A stretch of 37,125 nt of DNA from a virus, in IMG/VR virus record IMGVR_UViG_3300037246_000553, positions 1 to 37,125 of that record; one strand, 5' to 3'. Made by a program: the position numbers and the translations under genes. Positions within the stretch are counted from its first letter, which is position 1. Every line of letters starts with the position of its first letter. This document shows positions 1 to 37,125 of the stretch, one piece after another. Under the pieces are notes generated by a model. That model searched no databases. It was not told where the DNA came from and saw nothing but the letters and a program-made list of their open reading frames with translations.

Positions 1-88
1 AGGATCTTTAGTCAGATCGCTGAGAGCGTTCAAGGCTTCTAACTCGGATCTTAGTTCGCATAGCCACTACTTACAACCGAACGAATAA

Positions 89-130
89 GGAGCTCCGGAT
101 CTCGACAGGTTCGGAGCTCCCGTCTTATTT
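89..130 (+). terminator. Rho-independent terminator after pilin gene (left copy)
   Basis: The nine-base stem GGAGCTCCG (89-97) pairs with CGGAGCTCC (112-120) across a 14-base loop and is followed by CGTCTTATTT. It lies about 47 bases after the pilin stop codon. It probably ends the rightward accessory operon before the late promoter. Confidence 0.8.
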
Positions 131-296
131 ATCTCCTTCTCTTCCGCTCTTCCCGGCCGTCGATCGGGATCCCCGAGCGGCCGAATCAGGCGAAGGACCC
201 GGCTCCGCCGGCCGGAATAGGGGAGCCTGTAAATCGAGGGTACTCACTTACCATAAATACGCTCAAAGTCGCTTAGATCGACGCTGTGGCAGTCTC

Positions 297-347
297 GTCC
301 GACGTCCCACTGCAGTGGATTACCGCTTCCCGGTATGACGGTATAAC
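297..347. promoter_or_regulatory. Palindromic operator region upstream of late promoter
   Basis: A GTCCGAC heptamer (297-303) is followed by the perfect 12-bp palindrome CCACTGCAGTGG (307-318). A weak promoter-like pair follows: TTACCG at 320-325 and TATAAC at 342-347, with a 16-base spacer. The heptamer next to CACTGCAGTG also occurs at 25799-25819 in the leftward control region. A protein that acts at both places is likely, but its identity is not visible. A second copy lies at 35872-35922. Confidence 0.5.
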
Positions 348-372
348 GGGGAGTGTAAAAATGGGATCCCGA

Positions 373-401
373 TTGACCAGTCTCAAAAATGAGACTAGGA
401 T
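373..401 (+). promoter_or_regulatory. Late-operon promoter with an operator filling its spacer
   Basis: The -35 box TTGACC (373-378) and -10 box TAGGAT (396-401) are separated by exactly 17 bases (379-395). The spacer is taken up by the palindrome GTCTCAAAAATGAGAC (380-395). That palindrome and its flanks match the iteron at 28452-28467 in the replication gene, in reverse orientation, over about 21 bases. The layout implies that a protein bound to the palindrome blocks or remodels RNA polymerase binding. The next coding start is at 518 and the plus-strand genes run to 23942. Confidence 0.7.
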
Positions 402-402
402 A

Positions 403-464
403 AGGAGGAGCTCCTCCTCCAGTGGAGCTCGGGAGACGCCGAGACGGGAACGCCGCCGGCGTCT
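403..464 (+). other. Leader hairpins of the late operon
   Basis: Directly after the late -10 box lies the perfect 16-bp palindrome AGGAGGAGCTCCTCCT (403-418). It looks like a ribosome binding site folded against its complement, but no start codon follows at proper spacing. A second hairpin pairs AGACGCCG (434-441) with CGGCGTCT (457-464). No U-run follows, so a plain terminator is unlikely. A 5' stabilising structure or a processing site is possible. The region also contains two extra GAGAC half-sites, at 434-446. Confidence 0.35.
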
Positions 465-517
465 TCTACTTTGAAAGGGAGCCGAGATATGATAGGATCG
501 AGAACGGAGGAGGAGCG

Positions 518-1768
518 ATGGCAAAGAAAGCCGAACGACTTCGGATCGATTACTTACCTCTTACGGATCTCCTCACTCGCAAGTCTCCGGATAACGCTAA
601 ACTTCACGATCTAATTCAGATGGCCTACTCCTTCGGGAAGTTCGGCTTCGTCGCTCCGGCTGGGATCGATGAGACGACCGGGCTTCTCCTCTGGGGGCAC
701 GGCAGGCTCGACGAGCTCTACGAGCTCAAGGAGAGCGGAGCGAAGCCTCCCGGACGGATCGAGATTGAGGGAGACGAGTGGCTCGTCCCGACGGTCCGGG
801 GGATCCGGCTCGGGAAGAAGCTCGGACCGCTTTACAGGATGGCCGATAATGCGATCGGCGAAGGTCTCTGGGATAAGGACAAGCTCGCTCAGACGATTAT
901 CGCCGCCGTCGGAGATCAACTCGAGGAGCTTCAAGGGACCGGGATCGAACCGGATTACGCTTCCGCATTAATCGAGGCCTATCAAAAGAATGGGAAGGAA
1001 GACAAGCCGCCGCCGAATACCGAAGACGTTAAGCGTCTCCGTCGAAAGTGGAAGACGAAGCTCGGCGACTTTTACGATATCGGATCTCATCGGCTTATCG
1101 TCGGAGACGCTACGGACGGAGAGATAGTTACGAGGCTCTTCGCTGGCGAGAAGGCTTCCGCTGTTCTTACGGATCCGCCTTACGGAATGATGAAGGACGG
1201 GATCCTGAATGACGATCCCCGAGGGCTCTCCTTGCTATACGGAGAGGCGATCGCTAACCTTCCGATGGATAAGGGGGTCGTCGTCGCCTTCCAGTCGCCG
1301 AGGCTCAATCTCCTTACGATCTGGCTCGATCGAATGACAGAGAACAAGTACAAGCTTGAGCGACTTCTCTGGGTCTACTTTACGAATACGACGAACTCGT
1401 TCCCTTGGCGAGGATGGATCCTTACGGGACAGGCGATCGTTATCTCATCGAAGGGACGTCCTCGATGGCCAAGGAAGAAGCTCGACTATCAGCACGATAC
1501 CTATACTCGGATCGGGAAGGAGGACGAGGAGCTCGACGGGAAACATCCAACGGTTAAGCCGGCTTGGATCTTCTCGGATCTCCTCAAGCGACTTCCTTAC
1601 GGGATCGTCTATGATCCCTTCTTAGGATCCGGGACAACGATGGCCGTCGCCGAGGGGATGGGGAGGGCTTGCTACGGACTCGAGATCGATCCGGGATACG
1701 CCGCCGTTACGCTCGAGCGAATGTCGAAGATCGGCGTTAAGATAAGTAAGAAGGAGAAGACAAAATGA
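518..1768 (+). CDS. ParB-like nuclease/DNA adenine or cytosine-N4 methyltransferase fusion
   Basis: This 416-residue protein is predicted to methylate phage DNA at an exocyclic amino group. The N-terminal 110 residues are ParB-like, with the GHGRLDEL motif. The C-terminal half has TDPPYG (motif IV) before DPFLGSGTT (motif I, the S-adenosylmethionine-binding loop), the order of beta-class N6-adenine/N4-cytosine methyltransferases. DPPY, rather than SPPY, favours N6-adenine. The start at 518 follows GGAGGAGGAGCG, a very strong ribosome binding site; an upstream in-frame GTG/ATG-less extension is less credible. It is the first gene after the late promoter. Fusions of ParB and methyltransferase domains are frequent in phages. 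The target site is unknown, although the excess of GATC/GGATCC in this genome makes such a site an attractive candidate. Confidence 0.85.
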   Translation: MAKKAERLRIDYLPLTDLLTRKSPDNAKLHDLIQMAYSFGKFGFVAPAGIDETTGLLLWGHGRLDELYELKESGAKPPGRIEIEGDEWLVPTVRGIRLGKKLGPLYRMADNAIGEGLWDKDKLAQTIIAAVGDQLEELQGTGIEPDYASALIEAYQKNGKEDKPPPNTEDVKRLRRKWKTKLGDFYDIGSHRLIVGDATDGEIVTRLFAGEKASAVLTDPPYGMMKDGILNDDPRGLSLLYGEAIANLPMDKGVVVAFQSPRLNLLTIWLDRMTENKYKLERLLWVYFTNTTNSFPWRGWILTGQAIVISSKGRPRWPRKKLDYQHDTYTRIGKEDEELDGKHPTVKPAWIFSDLLKRLPYGIVYDPFLGSGTTMAVAEGMGRACYGLEIDPGYAAVTLERMSKIGVKISKKEKTK

Positions 1769-2292: not shown

Positions 2293-3090
2293 TTGACTAA
2301 GAAGAAGGCGAAGCCGGCTCCGAAGAAGAAGAAGAAGAGGAAGCCGAGACCGAAGAACTTCAAGCCGAGATCTCTCTTCGCTCGGAACTTCCGGGAGAAG
2401 AGGAAGAGGCTTCGTCCTCGGTGTCAGGCTTGGAATGGGAACGCCGGCCGACAGTGTATAAACCTCCCGGTTAAAGGCCGGGGCCATCCCGCCGCTAAAG
2501 AGAGCTTTAAGACCGTATGCGGATCTCACGGCGGGAGATCTCCTTCAGGTCCCGATCACCCTCGATTTAAACACGGCCGATATTCGAAGGATCTCCCGGC
2601 TAATCTCGCCGCCGATTATCAGCGATCGCTCGGGGATCCGGATCTCGTCTCCCTCCGTCAGGAGCTCGCTCTCGTCGACCTCTTCAATACGCAGGACGTA
2701 AGGAAGCTCTATAAGCTCGAGGATCCCGCCGCTTGGGGTCTAGCCAGTGAACTCTTCCGGGAGCTCGAGTCCGCCTCGCAGAGAGGAGAACTCGAGGCCG
2801 TTACCTTCTACATGGATCGGCTCAGAGGGGTCCTCCGGAAAGGGCTCCGAGCGGAGAACTTAAAAGATCGGATCGTCGCAAGGTTCGATGTTCGGAGGAA
2901 GCTATCCGATTCGGAGCGAAGAACTCTTATCGATCTTAAGCTTGTCTTAACTGTAGAGCGTCAGATGGCTCTCCTCGGAGCCGTCGCCGCTCTTATCGCC
3001 GAGAACGTAAAGGATCCGGATGAGCGGAAAGCGATCGCAGGTGGGCTCAGAAATATTGTTAGACGACGAGCTCTTACAGACGGCCAATAA
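2293..3090 (+). CDS. Putative small terminase subunit with zinc-binding motif
   Basis: This 265-residue protein precedes and overlaps the large terminase gene, the usual place for the small subunit, which recognises phage DNA. The first 43 residues are a Lys/Arg-rich tail. Next come C44, C55, C76 and H79 in a C-x10-C...C-x2-H pattern followed by GGRSPSGPDHPRFKHGRYS, seen in many phage terminase-region proteins. The remainder is predicted helical, consistent with oligomerisation. The start is TTG at 2293, preceded by GAGGA. The only nearby ATG (2274) opens an eight-codon reading frame in another frame (MNSRIPID) that ends at 2300. The assignment to the small terminase family rests mostly on position. 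Confidence 0.65.
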   Translation: MTKKKAKPAPKKKKKRKPRPKNFKPRSLFARNFREKRKRLRPRCQAWNGNAGRQCINLPVKGRGHPAAKESFKTVCGSHGGRSPSGPDHPRFKHGRYSKDLPANLAADYQRSLGDPDLVSLRQELALVDLFNTQDVRKLYKLEDPAAWGLASELFRELESASQRGELEAVTFYMDRLRGVLRKGLRAENLKDRIVARFDVRRKLSDSERRTLIDLKLVLTVERQMALLGAVAALIAENVKDPDERKAIAGGLRNIVRRRALTDGQ

Positions 3091-4537
3091 CTTCCTCGAA
3101 TACCAGTGGGTCGTCGCCGAGGAAGGCTCCGATGAGCTATCCTCCGAAGACCGGTTCCTCCTCGGTCTCGCCGAGAAGATTGAGCCGATCGAATATACGC
3201 CGATCCTCGATCTCGCCGGCTTCTTCCCTAAACAAGAAGAGGCTCGGGAGAAGGCCGACGCCAATCTCTTCACATTATTCGGAGGTACTCGAGGACCGGG
3301 GAAGTCTTACTTCCTCCGATGGTACGGGCTCTACCTTCTCGAAAAGGTTTATAAGGAGTTCGGGATCTCCGGGGCTCGGATTATGCTCGCTTGCGAGACC
3401 TATCCGACGCTCTATGAACGTCACCTCGTAAAAGTCGAGCGGGAGTTCTTCGGCCTTGGAAATTATCAGAAGGTCCTCCGAGAGTTTCAACTCTCCCCGG
3501 AATATGGATCCGGGGTCCTCGCCTTCCGGAACCTCGACGACGTCGAGAAGTACGCTGGATCCGAATATCTCACTATCCTTGTCGACGAGTTAACTCGCAA
3601 TAGGAAGAAGGTCTTCGACGTTCTCCGGGGATCTATACGATGGCCGGGAGTAACGGATGAGTGGCTTCGCTTCGTCTCCGCCTCGATGCCGACGGGGATC
3701 GGTAAGGTCTGGGTCCGTGAGATGTTTCTCGAGAAGAAGCTCCCTGAAGAGATGCTCGGGCTCGAGGATAAGATCGTTTACGTTTTCGGAAGTCCTACAG
3801 ATAATCCCCATCTTCCCGCCGGCTATTGGGCCATGCTAAAGACGCTCCCGACGCCGCTCCGCAAGGCTTGGCTCGAGGGTGACTGGTACGTCTCATTCGA
3901 AGGTCTCGTATATTCAGAGTTCTCCGGCGAGAACTTGCTCGAGCCCGAATGGGAGCCAGCGCTTGACGAGGAAGGGCTCCCGATCTACGAGGTCGAGCTC
4001 GGTTACGACGACGGTTATATCGATCCTCGGGCGATCCTCTTTATCCAAAAGACCGGTACTGAGATTTTCGTCTTCGATGAGATCTATATCCGCCGAGAGC
4101 TCCCGGAGAGATCGATCCGGAGGATCCTTGATAGGATGATTTCTCACTTCGGATCCGAAGCCGACGACGATGGAGAGCCGGCACTTGACGAGCATGGAGA
4201 GGAGATCCCGATCGTAATGCCGGCGATCGCCGTCGGATCCCCGGAAGCGGCGGTATTGAAAAAACGCTTCCGATCTGCTAATATCCCAATAAGAAGGCCG
4301 GGAATAAAGAACGTCGTCGAGGGGATCTCTCATGTAAGGGAGCTCATTATCGACGGCCAAGGAGTTCGAACTATCAAGATCCATCCTCGATGTTCGAATC
4401 TAATATCCGAATTAACTGAAGGCTACATATATCCCGAGGAGGGAACGAGGAGAGACGACGAGAAGCCACTCGACGGGAACGATCACGCTTGCGAAGCCTT
4501 ACGCTATTGGGCGACCGCAAGGATTAAGAAGAGGTAA
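3020..4537 (+). CDS. terL: Terminase large subunit
   Basis: This 505-residue DNA-packaging motor ATPase and nuclease has Walker A GGTRGPGKS (about residues 88-96) and Walker B LTILVDE (about 184-190). The C-terminal nuclease domain has acidic residues in VELGYDDGYIDPRAILFI (around 320) and NDHACEALRYW near the end. These are hallmarks of phage TerL. The chosen ATG lies 71 bases inside the small-subunit gene and has AAGGATCC upstream. A GTG at 3041 or a TTG at 3056 is possible, but all overlap the preceding gene. Its length is typical for the family. It acts at the portal vertex during head filling. Confidence 0.93.
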   Translation: MSGKRSQVGSEILLDDELLQTANNFLEYQWVVAEEGSDELSSEDRFLLGLAEKIEPIEYTPILDLAGFFPKQEEAREKADANLFTLFGGTRGPGKSYFLRWYGLYLLEKVYKEFGISGARIMLACETYPTLYERHLVKVEREFFGLGNYQKVLREFQLSPEYGSGVLAFRNLDDVEKYAGSEYLTILVDELTRNRKKVFDVLRGSIRWPGVTDEWLRFVSASMPTGIGKVWVREMFLEKKLPEEMLGLEDKIVYVFGSPTDNPHLPAGYWAMLKTLPTPLRKAWLEGDWYVSFEGLVYSEFSGENLLEPEWEPALDEEGLPIYEVELGYDDGYIDPRAILFIQKTGTEIFVFDEIYIRRELPERSIRRILDRMISHFGSEADDDGEPALDEHGEEIPIVMPAIAVGSPEAAVLKKRFRSANIPIRRPGIKNVVEGISHVRELIIDGQGVRTIKIHPRCSNLISELTEGYIYPEEGTRRDDEKPLDGNDHACEALRYWATARIKKR

Positions 4538-13070: not shown

Positions 13071-13533
13071 TTGGATCGACTATATCCCGGAGAAGATCTC
13101 CGAGCTCTCCTATCGGGGGAAGAGTATCCGCTCATTCCTCGTCTATAAGAAGACGGAGATCCCTGACAAGCTCGAGCCGGAGGATATCCCGGCGGCGGTT
13201 ACTTACTTGATAGGGTCCTCCGGAGATTATTCCGCCGGCGGAGCTTGGGAGTATTGGACCGGCCAGACGGACTTCTATCTCGAGAACTCGACGGCGAAGG
13301 AGCTCTATAATCAGGTCCTCGACTTCCATCCTCTTATCCGGAATAAGCTCCTCGAGAATATACAGTTCGCCGGTCTCGTCGACGAATTCAGGCTCATTGA
13401 AGGCGAGACCGAATCATCGATCCGAGGGCCGGTCGAATTGCAGTATAACGAGGAGGCTCCGTTCCGATGGGGCTACACAGTCAGGTGGAGAGTTAAAGAG
13501 AACGTGTCGACCGAAGTAACGATCGCCGCTTGA
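13060..13533 (+). CDS. Putative tail terminator protein
   Basis: It is 157 residues and lies between the gp10-like and tail tube genes, the place of the lambda gpU-type tail terminator that caps the tube. The alternating beta and helix pattern (IRSFLVYKKTEIPDKLEPED...AAVTYLIGS) is consistent with that fold. The assignment rests on order and length. The ATG overlaps the end of the previous gene by 11 bases. Confidence 0.55.
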   Translation: MVSDWIDYIPEKISELSYRGKSIRSFLVYKKTEIPDKLEPEDIPAAVTYLIGSSGDYSAGGAWEYWTGQTDFYLENSTAKELYNQVLDFHPLIRNKLLENIQFAGLVDEFRLIEGETESSIRGPVELQYNEEAPFRWGYTVRWRVKENVSTEVTIAA

Positions 13534-13584
13534 CGTCGGACGAGATGGCCACATATCGACGAGCGTCTATATAAGGAGTTCAGA

Positions 13585-24813: not shown

Positions 24814-25322
24814 TGAATCAGGCCGTCGTCGAGCCTTGCCACTCCTCCGGATAATTGAGCGGCCGCCGGCGTCGAGTTTCTTACGTGCCATTGGCCGACT
24901 TCGATCTCGAGGATTGTATTAAGCATTCGTCGGAGCATGGCGAGATATTCCTTCCGGAGACCGGAGAGCTTGTACTGATAATTAACCGATCTTTCATAAG
25001 CGAAGTCGATATAGAAGTACGGGATTTTTAAACTGTCGATTGTCGCTATTTGGGTATTCATAGCCTTGTCTCTCGGATCGATCTTCTCCTTCGGTGCTTC
25101 TTCGTCCCGGATCCGATTGATCAGATCGAAAGCGATCTCGAGCGACCAGATCAGGAGACCTTGTCTCGCATAACGGAAGCCGATCGAGTCCTTCTCGAAG
25201 CCGATAAAAAAGAATATATCAGTCTTCGTCTCAAGATATTCGATCGCCGCCGCTATCTTCTCCTTCGAGGTCAGGGCCTTACCCTTCGATTTCTTCTTCT
25301 CCGGACTCTTCGGTTCGTTCAT
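24810..25322 (-). CDS. Hypothetical protein (170 aa)
   Basis: It begins MNEPKSPEKKKSKGKALTSK, a Lys-rich N terminus, then continues with a mixed alpha/beta sequence (DIFFFIGFEKDSIGFRYARQ) and helices. It overlaps the RHH gene by 44 bases at its start and the nuclease gene at its stop, so translation is coupled. Ribosome binding site GGAAAGGAGAGGAGA. No family recognised; the operon context suggests DNA replication or recombination. Confidence 0.6.
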   Translation of the reverse strand: MNEPKSPEKKKSKGKALTSKEKIAAAIEYLETKTDIFFFIGFEKDSIGFRYARQGLLIWSLEIAFDLINRIRDEEAPKEKIDPRDKAMNTQIATIDSLKIPYFYIDFAYERSVNYQYKLSGLRKEYLAMLRRMLNTILEIEVGQWHVRNSTPAAAQLSGGVARLDDGLIQ

Positions 25323-25650
25323 TCTCCTCTCCTTTCCTTGGAATGATATCTTCGATCTCGAGTAGGTGATCCGGCCAATGAAGTACGACCGGGAGCTTCT
25401 CCTTCAGATCGGGATGGCCAAGGTCTAATTGAGTTCTTCGGCGGAGATATGCTCCTCTCTCCATTACGGGAGAATCTCCGAAGGCGGCGAGGACGATAAA
25501 GATCCCTTGTCTAACGAGATCCGACGGCGAGACTTTCTTCTCTCCCCATCGAAGCTTCCTCGTAAATTCTCGAGCGATGATCTCCTCGAGGAGCTCGTTC
25601 GTCCTCTTCGTAATCCGGACCGTCTTCTTTATAGTTGCTTCATCGTTCAT
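25279..25650 (-). CDS. Ribbon-helix-helix DNA-binding protein (123 aa)
   Basis: ATIKKTVRITKRTNELLEEI is a beta strand plus helix, and VSPSDLVRQGIFIVLAAFG is the second helix of a ribbon-helix-helix fold, as in Arc/CopG proteins. The rest is Glu-rich and probably flexible. The start follows AAAGGAGAAGAGT. It is the first gene after the heptamer array at 25651-25864. RHH proteins often bind arrays of short repeats next to their own gene, so autoregulation at GTCCGAC sites is a reasonable inference. Confidence 0.65.
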   Translation of the reverse strand: MNDEATIKKTVRITKRTNELLEEIIAREFTRKLRWGEKKVSPSDLVRQGIFIVLAAFGDSPVMERGAYLRRRTQLDLGHPDLKEKLPVVLHWPDHLLEIEDIIPRKGEENERTEESGEEEIEG

Positions 25651-25864
25651 ACTCTTCTCCTTTCTTGATTGGCCAGAGCTCGTCCGACGTCGAGCGATCG
25701 ACGGGTGTCCGACGGCTTACCAGGTAACGTGTCGGACATTATAACAGGATCCGGATTAAACGTCCGACGCCAGATCGATCTCGTTATCCGGAGTATTTGT
25801 CCGACGCTCCACTGCAGTGAGACGTCAGACGGGTTGCCGGCAAGGTGTCGGACTTACGATCGTG
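25651..25864 (-). promoter_or_regulatory. Non-coding operator array with promoter
   Basis: Within 214 bases the heptamer GTCCGAC occurs at 25682, 25707, 25762 and 25799. It occurs inverted (GTCGGAC) at 25731 and 25847, with one variant (GTCAGAC) at 25824. Several are spaced 23-25 bases apart. Between pairs lie palindromes: TTACCAGGTAA (25717-25727), CACTGCAGTG (25810-25819) and TTGCCGGCAA (25834-25843). A minus-strand -10 box TATAAT lies at 25743-25738 for the RHH gene, with no good -35. The region has no credible gene. It looks like a multi-site control region, or possibly a second replication or partition site. Confidence 0.65.
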
Positions 25865-26570: not shown

Positions 26571-27056
26571 CTAGGGGGATATCACTATACTAAGTAAATC
26601 CGAGAGATAATCCGGGGCTCTTCCGGGCTCGATCGGGATCCGGATAGCTCCGAATTCGTCGTAAAGATCGAAGATAAGGAAGGGTCGATGATCCCGGATG
26701 ACGGGCTCGGATCTGACAGGAAGAACGAATAAGGCTTCCCTCTTCCTAGCTTCGATAAGGAAGAAGGCGATCGCTCCGAATCGGTCGAAGTCGCAGAGAT
26801 CCCGGTACTGGTGAACCGCTCGAGATCGGAGCTTCCACTTATTCAGGTTCCCGGTCGACTTGGCGTCGAAGGCGAAGAAGCGACCTCCCGGCGGAAGGAT
26901 CCCCATATAGTCCGGGAGAGACTTCTCGGCGACGAACTTGTCCTTCCCTATCCATCGGCCGGCGACCTTTGTCCGGAATACGATCGCTCGGCCGCTCGCT
27001 TTATATCGATTATGTATCCAGTCGAGACCGTCTTCGAACGCTATTCCGAAACTCAT
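26571..27056 (-). CDS. RecU-like Holliday junction resolvase
   Basis: This 161-residue protein has the RecU pattern: AFEDGLDWIHNRYK near the start (E8), LPDYMGILPPGG with D49, then FAFDAKSTG with D64 and K66, and VHQYRDLCDFDRFGAIAFFL. RecU-family enzymes cut four-way junctions made by recombination and replication. It should resolve branched phage DNA before packaging. The ATG overlaps the previous TGA (ATGA). It appears to lack the long N-terminal arm of bacterial RecU. Confidence 0.8.
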   Translation of the reverse strand: MSFGIAFEDGLDWIHNRYKASGRAIVFRTKVAGRWIGKDKFVAEKSLPDYMGILPPGGRFFAFDAKSTGNLNKWKLRSRAVHQYRDLCDFDRFGAIAFFLIEARKREALFVLPVRSEPVIRDHRPFLIFDLYDEFGAIRIPIEPGRAPDYLSDLLSIVISP

Positions 27057-28094: not shown

Positions 28095-28190
28095 TTAGAT
28101 TCCCGGATAGAACATGATTAAAAGAACGATAAAACCTACGATTACAATCCCGGCAAATAAGCCGATAAGGAATACGCCGACGTTCTTCAT
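28095..28190 (-). CDS. Tiny membrane protein (31 aa)
   Basis: The protein starts MKNVGVFLIGLFAGIVIVGF and is nearly all one hydrophobic span. The ATG at 28190 overlaps the stop of the replication initiator (TAATG), with AAAGGATGGGATTA upstream. An in-frame ATG at 28199 would add three residues. Its function is unknown; tiny membrane proteins in phage early operons often alter host membranes or exclude other phages. Confidence 0.6.
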   Translation of the reverse strand: MKNVGVFLIGLFAGIVIVGFIVLLIMFYPGI

Positions 28191-28873
28191 TAATCCCATC
28201 CTTTCAAATAACGGGCTCGAGCTTCCGGGCCTTCCGGATCCGCTTCTATTAATTCGGCTTCGCCGGGGAGCGGATCCCGGACTTTCAGGCGATGAGCGAG
28301 GAGCCGCTTCGAGTCTCCTCGGAGCTCGGCATAACGCACGTGGGCCGAGATCCAATCGACAACGACGTCCGGATCTTCGACGAGATCCCGGCGGAGAGGA
28401 TTTCCGATCCCGAGTTCCTTAAGGAAGAGCTCCTTCGCTGTTTTAATTCTAGTCTCATTTTTGAGACTGCGAGACTTGCTACTGCTACTAGAATCTTTAA
28501 CTTCTTTATTTATAGAATTCTCTTTAATACCAGTAGTAGTAGGTCTCAAATTTGAGACTACCGAGTATCCGGTCTCATCTGTGAGACTGGTCTCAAATCT
28601 GGGACCGGGTCGATAAACGGGAGAGCCGAAGGATCCGGACGGAGAGCTCTCGATCCATCCCGTTATTCTCAATACCCTTACAGAGCGGAAGTAGGTCGCC
28701 TTCGATAGTCCGAACTTGCGGCAAGCGTCGGACCAATGGAGCGGTGAGGTCTCCGGGGATGAAGGGGCGTTCTCCCACATTAGTTCTAAGAGCTTCCCGA
28801 GAAGGCGGAGCTCTCCGTCGGATAGATTTTTATCGTATAAAGCAGGGACTGGAATATGCGAATACTTACTCAT
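28190..28873 (-). CDS. Replication initiator (lambda O-like organisation)
   Basis: The 227-residue protein has a winged-helix N-terminal domain: LSDGELRLLGKLLELMWE, then SDACRKFGLSKATYFRSVRV and LRITGWIESSP. A Ser/Lys/Asn-rich linker (about residues 95-150) is encoded by the iteron and AT-rich DNA. The C-terminal 75 residues (RDLVEDPDVVVDWISAHVRY) would recruit host replication helicase, as in DnaD/O-type initiators. The chosen ATG at 28873 overlaps the upstream stop (ATGAGTAA); a TTG at 28894 would add seven residues. No phage helicase or polymerase is seen, so the host replisome is probably used. Confidence 0.75.
   Translation of the reverse strand: MSKYSHIPVPALYDKNLSDGELRLLGKLLELMWENAPSSPETSPLHWSDACRKFGLSKATYFRSVRVLRITGWIESSPSGSFGSPVYRPGPRFETSLTDETGYSVVSNLRPTTTGIKENSINKEVKDSSSSSKSRSLKNETRIKTAKELFLKELGIGNPLRRDLVEDPDVVVDWISAHVRYAELRGDSKRLLAHRLKVRDPLPGEAELIEADPEGPEARARYLKGWD
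28452..28605. other. Putative replication origin: iterons and AT-rich segment
   Basis: Four copies of GTCTCA-N4-TGAGAC lie inside the initiator gene: 28452-28467 (TTTT spacer), 28543-28558, 28572-28587 and 28590-28605 (last copy imperfect, GTCTCAAATCTGGGAC). A half-site GAGAC is at 28471. The 28476-28540 interval is markedly AT-rich (CTTTAACTTCTTTATTTATA), a likely unwinding element. Lambda also has four inverted-repeat iterons and an AT-rich region within gene O. Confidence 0.75.
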
Positions 28874-35473: not shown

Positions 35474-35617
35474 ATGTTTCAAAAAGGACAAAGCTTTCTC
35501 GAATATGCGTTAATCTTGATTCTTGTGGCAGTCATTGTAGTCGTCATTCTGACTCTACTCGGACCAGAGCTCGTTAGGATCTTTAGTCAGATCGCTGAGA
35601 GCGTTCAAGGCTTCTAA
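35474..35617 (+). CDS. Flp/type IVb pilin-like protein (47 aa)
   Basis: The protein starts MFQKGQSFLEYALILILVAV. A five-residue leader ends in Gly, and mature numbering gives E5 and Y6 (GQSFLEY), the Flp pilin prepilin-peptidase signature. A 22-residue hydrophobic helix follows, ending LTLLGPELVRIFSQI. Length (47) and the short tail match Flp pilins of Tad systems, many of which have the GxxxxEYxLIxxLxA pattern. GTAGGAGGATAAC precedes ATG. It is the last gene before the terminator at 35664. No prepilin peptidase, ATPase or secretin is encoded, so host machinery would be needed. Confidence 0.82.
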   Translation: MFQKGQSFLEYALILILVAVIVVVILTLLGPELVRIFSQIAESVQGF

Positions 35618-35663
35618 CTCGGATCTTAGTTCGCATAGCCACTACTTACAACCGAACGAATAA

Positions 35664-35706
35664 GGAGCTCCGGATCTCGACAGGTTCGGAGCTCCCGTCT
35701 TTTTTA
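35664..35706 (+). terminator. Rho-independent terminator after pilin gene (right copy)
   Basis: The stem is the same as at 89-120, here followed by CGTCTTTTTTA, a canonical U-tract. It lies 47 bases after the pilin stop codon. The copies differ only after the stem, so this may be the functional form and the left copy a variant or a read error. Confidence 0.85.
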
Positions 35707-35947
35707 TTACTCTCTCTTCCGCTCTTCCCGGCCGTCGATCGGGATCCCCGAGCGGCCGAATCAGGCGAAGGACCCGGCTCCGCCGGCCGGAATAGGGGAG
35801 CCTGTAAATCGAGGGTACTCACTTACCATAAATACGCTCAAAGTCGCTTAGATCGACGCTGTGGCAGTCTCGTCCGACGTCCCACTGCAGTGGATTACCG
35901 CTTCCCGGTATGACGGTATAACGGGGAGTGTAAAAATGGGATCCCGA

Positions 35948-35976
35948 TTGACCAGTCTCAAAAATGAGACTAGGAT
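35948..35976 (+). promoter_or_regulatory. Late promoter and operator, right copy
   Basis: This is the exact repeat of the promoter at 373-401, with the palindromic operator at 35955-35970. In a circular or permuted genome the two are the same site. Confidence 0.65.
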
Positions 35977-36092
35977 AAGGAGGAGCTCCTCCTCCAGTGG
36001 AGCTCGGGAGACGCCGAGACGGGAACGCCGCCGGCGTCTTCTACTTTGAAAGGGAGCCGAGATATGATAGGATCGAGAACGGAGGAGGAGCG

Positions 36093-37125
36093 ATGGCAAA
36101 GAAAGCCGAACGACTTCGGATCGATTACTTACCTCTTACGGATCTCCTCACTCGCAAGTCTCCGGATAACGCTAAACTTCACGATCTAATTCAGATGGCC
36201 TACTCCTTCGGGAAGTTCGGCTTCGTCGCTCCGGCTGGGATCGATGAGACGACCGGGCTTCTCCTCTGGGGGCACGGCAGGCTCGACGAGCTCTACGAGC
36301 TCAAGGAGAGCGGAGCGAAGCCTCCCGGACGGATCGAGATTGAGGGAGACGAGTGGCTCGTCCCGACGGTCCGGGGGATCCGGCTCGGGAAGAAGCTCGG
36401 ACCGCTTTACAGGATGGCCGATAATGCGATCGGCGAAGGTCTCTGGGATAAGGACAAGCTCGCTCAGACGATTATCGCCGCCGTCGGAGATCAACTCGAG
36501 GAGCTTCAAGGGACCGGGATCGAACCGGATTACGCTTCCGCATTAATCGAGGCCTATCAAAAGAATGGGAAGGAAGACAAGCCGCCGCCGAATACCGAAG
36601 ACGTTAAGCGTCTCCGTCGAAAGTGGAAGACGAAGCTCGGCGACTTTTACGATATCGGATCTCATCGGCTTATCGTCGGAGACGCTACGGACGGAGAGAT
36701 AGTTACGAGGCTCTTCGCTGGCGAGAAGGCTTCCGCTGTTCTTACGGATCCGCCTTACGGAATGATGAAGGACGGGATCCTGAATGACGATCCCCGAGGG
36801 CTCTCCTTGCTATACGGAGAGGCGATCGCTAACCTTCCGATGGATAAGGGGGTCGTCGTCGCCTTCCAGTCGCCGAGGCTCAATCTCCTTACGATCTGGC
36901 TCGATCGAATGACAGAGAACAAGTACAAGCTTGAGCGACTTCTCTGGGTCTACTTTACGAATACGACGAACTCGTTCCCTTGGCGAGGATGGATCCTTAC
37001 GGGACAGGCGATCGTTATCTCATCGAAGGGACGTCCTCGATGGCCAAGGAAGAAGCTCGACTATCAGCACGATACCTATACTCGGATCGGGAAGGAGGAC
37101 GAGGAGCTCGACGGGAAACATCCGA
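36093..37125 (+). CDS. ParB-methyltransferase, partial right copy cut by the window end
   Basis: This is the first 344 codons of the gene at 518-1768, repeated because of the terminal redundancy. It includes the ParB-like domain and TDPPYG. It stops before the DPFLGSGTT motif because the sequence ends, not because the gene is broken. Confidence 0.9.
   Translation, partial: MAKKAERLRIDYLPLTDLLTRKSPDNAKLHDLIQMAYSFGKFGFVAPAGIDETTGLLLWGHGRLDELYELKESGAKPPGRIEIEGDEWLVPTVRGIRLGKKLGPLYRMADNAIGEGLWDKDKLAQTIIAAVGDQLEELQGTGIEPDYASALIEAYQKNGKEDKPPPNTEDVKRLRRKWKTKLGDFYDIGSHRLIVGDATDGEIVTRLFAGEKASAVLTDPPYGMMKDGILNDDPRGLSLLYGEAIANLPMDKGVVVAFQSPRLNLLTIWLDRMTENKYKLERLLWVYFTNTTNSFPWRGWILTGQAIVISSKGRPRWPRKKLDYQHDTYTRIGKEDEELDGKHP

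Follow-up and report, generated by a model that had tools for sequence, protein, structure and literature searches.

Why would a replication iteron lie between the two hexamers of a promoter-like sequence, in front of the late genes of a phage? The question is raised by positions 373–401 of IMG/VR virus record IMGVR_UViG_3300037246_000553, whose 37,125 nucleotides are called here the window, meaning the whole stretch of DNA that was analysed. At this locus, the spacer of a sigma70-type promoter match is filled by a palindrome of the kind that is clustered inside the gene of a probable replication initiator (28190–28873, reverse strand). The initiator probably binds the late-region site as well, and the chances are about even that it represses one late-region promoter through positions 380–395. 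The likelihoods attached here to the possible mechanisms are judgements and not computed values.

The locus is composed of three adjoining parts. The −35-like hexamer TTGACC (373–378, forward strand; 5/6 consensus bases) and the −10-like hexamer TAGGAT (396–401, forward strand; 4/6) stand at the ideal distance of 17 bp, as the initial annotation had described, and the spacer AGTCTCAAAAATGAGAC (379–395) consists entirely of A379 and the 16-bp palindrome GTCTCA-AAAA-TGAGAC (380–395). The match to a sigma70-type promoter amounts to 9/12 bases, with a spacer inside the 16–18 bp range. In the genome unit, the core GTCTCA-N4-TGAGAC occurs exactly at 380, 28452, 28543 and 28572, and with 1 mismatch at 28590. 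The reverse complement of the late spacer is found at 28452–28468, within the initiator gene, where an identity of about 21 bases had been proposed; the identical block indeed covers 21 contiguous bases (378–398 and 28449–28469). When the −10 flank is included, 23/24 bases agree between the late site and this first iteron, iteron A, with TAGGAT in one facing TAGAAT in the other. The genome unit is taken as ~35,575 bp, because window positions 1–1550 are repeated at 35576–37125 with 6 mismatches. The palindrome is repeated with them at 35955–35970, which is the same locus as 380–395, and the segment 35954–35970 was rejected as a "third" perfect copy for this reason.

Such a distribution is not expected by chance. 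From the base composition, 0.002 exact copies are expected. Among palindrome families with six-base arms and a loop of 0–8, this one (four copies) is alone in exceeding two copies per genome unit, and in 40 dinucleotide shuffles no palindrome family rose above 2 copies. A random 16-mer would have a probability of ~7e-4 of falling wholly between the hexamers of a promoter-like match of this kind. These values bear on the reading in which the late site is a functionless iteron, copied or arisen by chance, and the promoter match is a coincidence. Copying predicts that the shared block takes in TAGGAT/TAGAAT, which it does, and the late-site iteron was not found in other elements. The rarity of exact copies, the small probability of a fall into a promoter spacer, the integrity of both palindrome arms and the position of the TTGAC of the −35 hexamer outside the block shared with iteron A all argue against this reading, which is regarded as very improbable. 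TAGGAT itself provides no independent evidence of a −10 element, because it is located inside that block.

The gene with the clustered copies encodes a protein of 227 amino acids, with a winged-helix N-terminal domain, a linker encoded by the iterons and a helical C-terminal part. Iterons A (28452–28467, with the AAAA centre of the late site), B (28543–28558, centre AATT) and C (28572–28587, centre TCTG) are exact, and iteron D (GTCTCAAATCTGGGAC, 28590–28605) has one mismatch; all of them (28452–28605) belong to the linker-coding part, after the winged helix. Between iterons A and B there is a probable DNA-unwinding element (28486–28540), where GC falls to 23.6%, lower than in any other 55-nt window of the genome. 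Because iteron A on one side and iterons B, C and D on the other flank this element, the gene has the anatomy of an origin located in its own initiator gene. Central repeats, an AT-rich element and, in the structural model, a winged-helix N-terminal domain are the features of in-gene theta origins, and all three are present. The earlier assignment of 28190–28873 as the initiator gene is supported by the iterons, the AT-rich element, the model and the relatives selected by motif described below; the gene very probably encodes the replication initiator, and the palindromes inside it are very probably its iterons.

In the AlphaFold2 (AF2) model, the N-terminal domain is a confident winged helix-turn-helix (wHTH), with residues 11–80 in blocks of pLDDT (predicted local distance difference test) ~78–93, and the C-terminal part is not resolved. 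The four best VIA-align matches were 4pql, 5kbj, 4pt7 and 4pta (Z 9.8–11.0 over 90 residues), with titles naming a Rep-DNA complex, an initiator, an MDR initiator and the N-terminal domain of a DNA binding protein; LexA and CRP were placed lower, at Z ~9. We take these four to be pSK41-type RepA_N Rep structures. Foldseek alone returned weak, generic winged helices, with no match at E 0.001, and the link to RepA_N rests on VIA-align, because Foldseek did not separate the Rep structures. The initiator has no match at E 0.01 to Pfam RepA_N (PF06970) or Phage_rep_O (PF04492), and a weak match (E 0.005, residues 3–98) to the replication initiation protein PHROG 270. It would therefore work like members of these two families while being placed in neither Pfam family. 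The helix S-[RKH]-x-[TS]-x-x-R is carried by the initiator alone among the plausible DNA-binding open reading frames (ORFs) of the window.

Other viruses and bacteria have the same iteron type as well. When neighbouring pairs of the palindrome were sought, 13 viral stretches and 106 stretches in bacterial genomes were retrieved, many of which are intergenic arrays or operators, with TetR-type and Fis-type neighbours among them. The arrays of rumen Bacteroidaceae (L120, L121, L123, L136, L150 and others) are intergenic, have a 22-bp period and occur on many contigs of one genome. In a subset of 14 distinct genes from phages and bacteria, each near-duplicate pair being taken once, the cluster lies inside a wHTH gene, directly after the helix. 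Eight of the 14 (L112, L113, L128, L134, with its duplicate L186, L160, L164, L172 and L222) match replication-initiation, O-like or DnaD-like profiles, and the others are L106/L108, L114, L117, L146, L195 and L213. Because the DNA motif by itself led to this subset of wHTH genes with in-gene clusters, of which 8/14 are initiator-like, there is good support for the pairing of an initiator with its iterons. The aligned members include one with a RepA_N match at 3e-21, one with a Phage_rep_O match at 5e-18 and one that matches the DnaA N-terminal domain; the last match possibly belongs to the longer L117 protein. The gene in question (L117:6434-7534, in G030) encodes an initiator with four GTCTCA iterons and is followed by a ParB-like gene.

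The recognition-helix arginine, R63 in the window protein, is invariant across the 14 aligned proteins. In L113, the iteron sites are read in several reading frames, which argues that DNA rather than peptide is conserved. The AT-rich stretch is also a recurring element: next to the cluster, the local minimum belongs to the lowest 1.2% of windows in 12/15 loci, three of these loci being repeats of genes already counted. Several unrelated members also have the AAAA centre of the late site. Ten whole genomes (62 Mb in total) contain 25 exact copies of the palindrome, and 24 of these are located in initiator-gene clusters or, in G035, in apparent repeats of its cluster. There, a pair on contig 15 agrees with the cluster on contig 16 in both of its sequences and in their spacing, and contig 8 also has a copy. 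The copy G036:C146 was considered as a distal one and rejected; it is placed at the end of a reverse-strand Fis-type activator ORF, away from the initiator.

From these elements, we infer binding, promoter use and the sign of the effect as follows. The winged-helix domain of the lambda O/RepA_N-like initiator would bind GTCTCA-N4-TGAGAC as a dimer, and the four in-gene copies around the AT-rich unwinding element would form the origin. A further copy of consensus grade is placed in the spacer of the sigma70-type promoter match, ~145 bp ahead of the first late gene. A dimer bound to 380–395 would occupy the spacer, and its simplest effect would be steric repression. Bound initiator and RNA polymerase would exclude each other on the DNA of 373–401, the initiator would repress the late promoter, and late transcription would be tied to the level of free initiator.

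Such repression could be extended to a titration switch, in which the initiator shuts the late promoter early in infection, new origin copies then draw it off, and late transcription rises. In this way, the progress of phage replication would be sensed through the iteron between −35 and −10 and would set the timing of the late genes, without a dedicated late activator. The ratio of origin sites to the late site, 4:1 per genome, and the location of the late site inside the promoter-like match are what such a switch would use. Titration is not automatic, because each new genome adds a late site and an initiator gene along with its four origin sites, and the ratio stays constant unless initiator synthesis is shut off. 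Moreover, core and centre are identical in the late site and iteron A, which gives no sign of a weaker site that would be vacated earlier, and an initiator-type distal copy was not found in other elements (three viral records and ten genomes). The switch is thus thought rather unlikely, and simple repression by the initiator is the reading preferred here.

The binder could also be a different protein, a phage repressor or a host factor, with the GTCTCA half-site reached by convergence. The exact promoter string has zero matches in viral contigs, and a relaxed spacer pattern has three, of which one (L225) was discarded because it lies within a coding gene. In the other two, L226 (TTGACA, palindrome, TATACT) and L227 (TTGACA, palindrome, TAAATT), the identical palindrome core fills the sigma70 spacer as a single copy, next to a gene whose match to regulators or repressors ranges from weak to clear, in the manner of a CI-type operator. 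Because both show the same arrangement, a palindrome in a promoter spacer is ordinary operator geometry; the unusual point of the present locus is that the probable binder is a replication initiator. Fis-type and TetR-type genes of other genomes also have the palindrome nearby. The neighbours of the 380 site, in turn, are the methylase and a pilin-like ORF, with no repressor-like gene beside the site; no other plausible DNA-binding ORF of the window has the matching helix, and the 23/24 identity to iteron A, flanks included, exceeds what a shared half-site needs. A different regulator is accordingly held to be improbable, and the initiator is retained as the expected binder. As a separate observation, XRE-like and Fis-like genes (L226:8882-9298, L235 near 4050, L170:1-303) also have the helix S-[KR]-A-T-x-Y-x-R or RATLYR next to GTCTCA palindromes, as if different HTH folds shared one recognition code.

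If the promoter-like match is in use, it would serve a rightward block with methylase, terminase, portal and capsid genes, upstream of which the late site is located. The first gene of this operon (518–1768, forward strand) is ParB-like/DNA methyltransferase, with the ribosome-binding site GGAGGAGG directly upstream, and the terminase large subunit (3020–4537, forward strand) belongs to the same operon. The match at 373–401 is intergenic, and a promoter is expected between 130 and 518, because a terminator-like hairpin (89–130, forward strand) closes the upstream unit. The first kilobase has just two promoter-like matches, at 373 and 471, where 0.3 are expected; the second (471–498, forward strand) reads TTGAAA-16-TAGGAT and has TG ahead of the −10. 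It is reasonably likely that 373–401 is a working promoter, and its description as a late promoter would follow from sequence and position.

A putative RNA starting near 408 would carry at its 5′ end GCTCCTCCTCC (410–420, forward strand), complementary at every base to 506–516, the ribosome-binding segment of the methylase. The leader folds better than its shuffled versions, with z −3.7 when taken from 408 and −5.1 when taken from 373. The 11-bp complement and the folding are compatible with transcription across the leader, although they do not prove it; Rfam gave no match. Between the two segments of this complementary pair there is a GC-rich hairpin, and their pairing is a possible means of translational control of the methylase.

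Other elements of the upstream region may belong to a second regulator. An operator-like block is located at 293–319 (forward strand), of which positions 296–319 share 22/24 bases with 25808–25831. The latter segment is a 24-nt piece of the control region of a ribbon-helix-helix (RHH)-like gene (25279–25650, reverse strand), where about seven GTCSGAC-type heptads are arranged around the −10 TGTTATAAT (25651–25864); the piece recurs partly at 13532–13553 as well. Taken together, 25651–25864 and 293–319 resemble an operator array that would serve a second regulator. Five of the 6 mismatches in the terminal repeat cluster at 127–137, in the T-run after the terminator, and may represent two variants in the population. 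The small ORF MFQKGQSFLEYALILILVAVIVVVILTLLGPELVRIFSQIAESVQGF at 35475–35618 resembles Flp/Tad-type pilins, a likeness which we assume to be unusual for a phage and a possible clue to the host.

Several points weigh against repression by the initiator at this site. The −10 match reaches just 4/6 bases and is partly explicable by copying of iteron A, and the late site is a single palindrome and not an array. The helix match is just suggestive, because S-x-x-T-x-x-R is a common recognition-helix pattern. The late operon may be controlled by other promoters or operators (293–346, 471–498), and other regulators may act on its upstream region, because the 293–319 block recurs in front of the RHH-like gene, in its control region. 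Finally, no initiator-type distal copy was found in the three cluster-bearing viral records and the ten whole genomes, none of which is a close relative.

This last point concerns the expectation that relatives would keep both sites, the cluster and the distal copy. In G030, G026 and G021, the cluster is present and a further copy within one mismatch was not found; at two mismatches, there is one weak further match, in G021. Close protein relatives of the initiator were found neither in viral contigs nor in phage records, and the relatedness test that was applied gave no relatives of the methylase. Terminase and capsid have relatives with 40–54% identity, whose early regions are unrelated, and the larger ones are without such an iteron family and without an initiator match. 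Because no compared element is a close relative, the retention of one site without the other, named in the initial annotation as a refutation, loses force as such.

The arrangement, if it works as proposed, would provide a direct link from replication to virion gene expression through one protein in a tailed phage. The motif search also points to origins within genes as a broad class with the common iteron core GTCTCA-N4-TGAGAC, which spans viral contigs as well as alphaproteobacterial, cyanobacterial and clostridial (Eubacterium) genomes. If real, a common core of this kind would allow origins and initiators to be found from raw DNA.

DnaA and autoregulated plasmid Rep proteins are initiators which double as transcriptional regulators. 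To our knowledge, initiators of this kind control their own gene or cellular genes, and not a structural-gene operon of a phage. DnaA is the subject of a review (PMC8203912). The literature covered, from which most subscription journals are absent, gave no example of an origin iteron that forms part of a phage late promoter.

A late-region site for the initiator, far from the origin, has its nearest precedent, by analogy, in phage SPP1, where gp38 binds oriL within its own gene and the distal oriR, and where the trigger is proposed to be the stalling of forks at oriR (PMC6316719, PMC3485210). Both phages have an origin in the initiator gene, a distant initiator site in the late region and a Holliday junction resolvase, which here is encoded in the same leftward gene block as the initiator (26571–27056, reverse strand); a protein weakly matching a recombination/exonuclease family is also present. 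The second site here is a sequence copy, with ~7.4 kb between the 380 site and the origin on the circular map. An oriR-like role would place the initiator near the packaging end, where it would hinder forks or mark a late origin and aid the switch from theta to concatemeric replication, and the promoter match would be secondary. The exact fit of the palindrome between −35 and −10 is left unexplained by such a role. Moreover, oriR of SPP1, which has been interpreted as a fork block or late origin, is situated within the late region and combines direct repeats with an AT-rich region, whereas the 380 site is one palindrome in a promoter-like spacer ahead of the late operon, with no AT-rich extreme beside it. 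The oriR-like role is on balance unlikely, and repression of the promoter by the initiator remains the favoured function of the site.

As for the origin itself, the model and the sequence suggest that the protein works like the in-gene-origin initiators of the lambda O and RepA_N types. The lambda iterons, which are inverted repeats, occupy the middle of the O gene, next to an AT-rich stretch (PMC7466680). The present gene shares this organization, but one of its iterons lies beyond the AT-rich stretch and a distal copy is present in the late region; PMC7466680 covers the origin iterons only. In the portions of PMC5703833 that concern its domains, the Rep protein of plasmid pSK41 has an N-terminal winged helix that binds Rep boxes central in rep, and a middle part serving as a linker. 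Winged helix, central boxes and an origin-encoded linker are thus common to pSK41 Rep and the present initiator. Unlike pSK41 Rep, for which those portions describe no distal promoter site, this initiator belongs to a phage and not a plasmid, has no PF06970 match, and has a further copy of its iteron in the promoter-like spacer ahead of the late operon.
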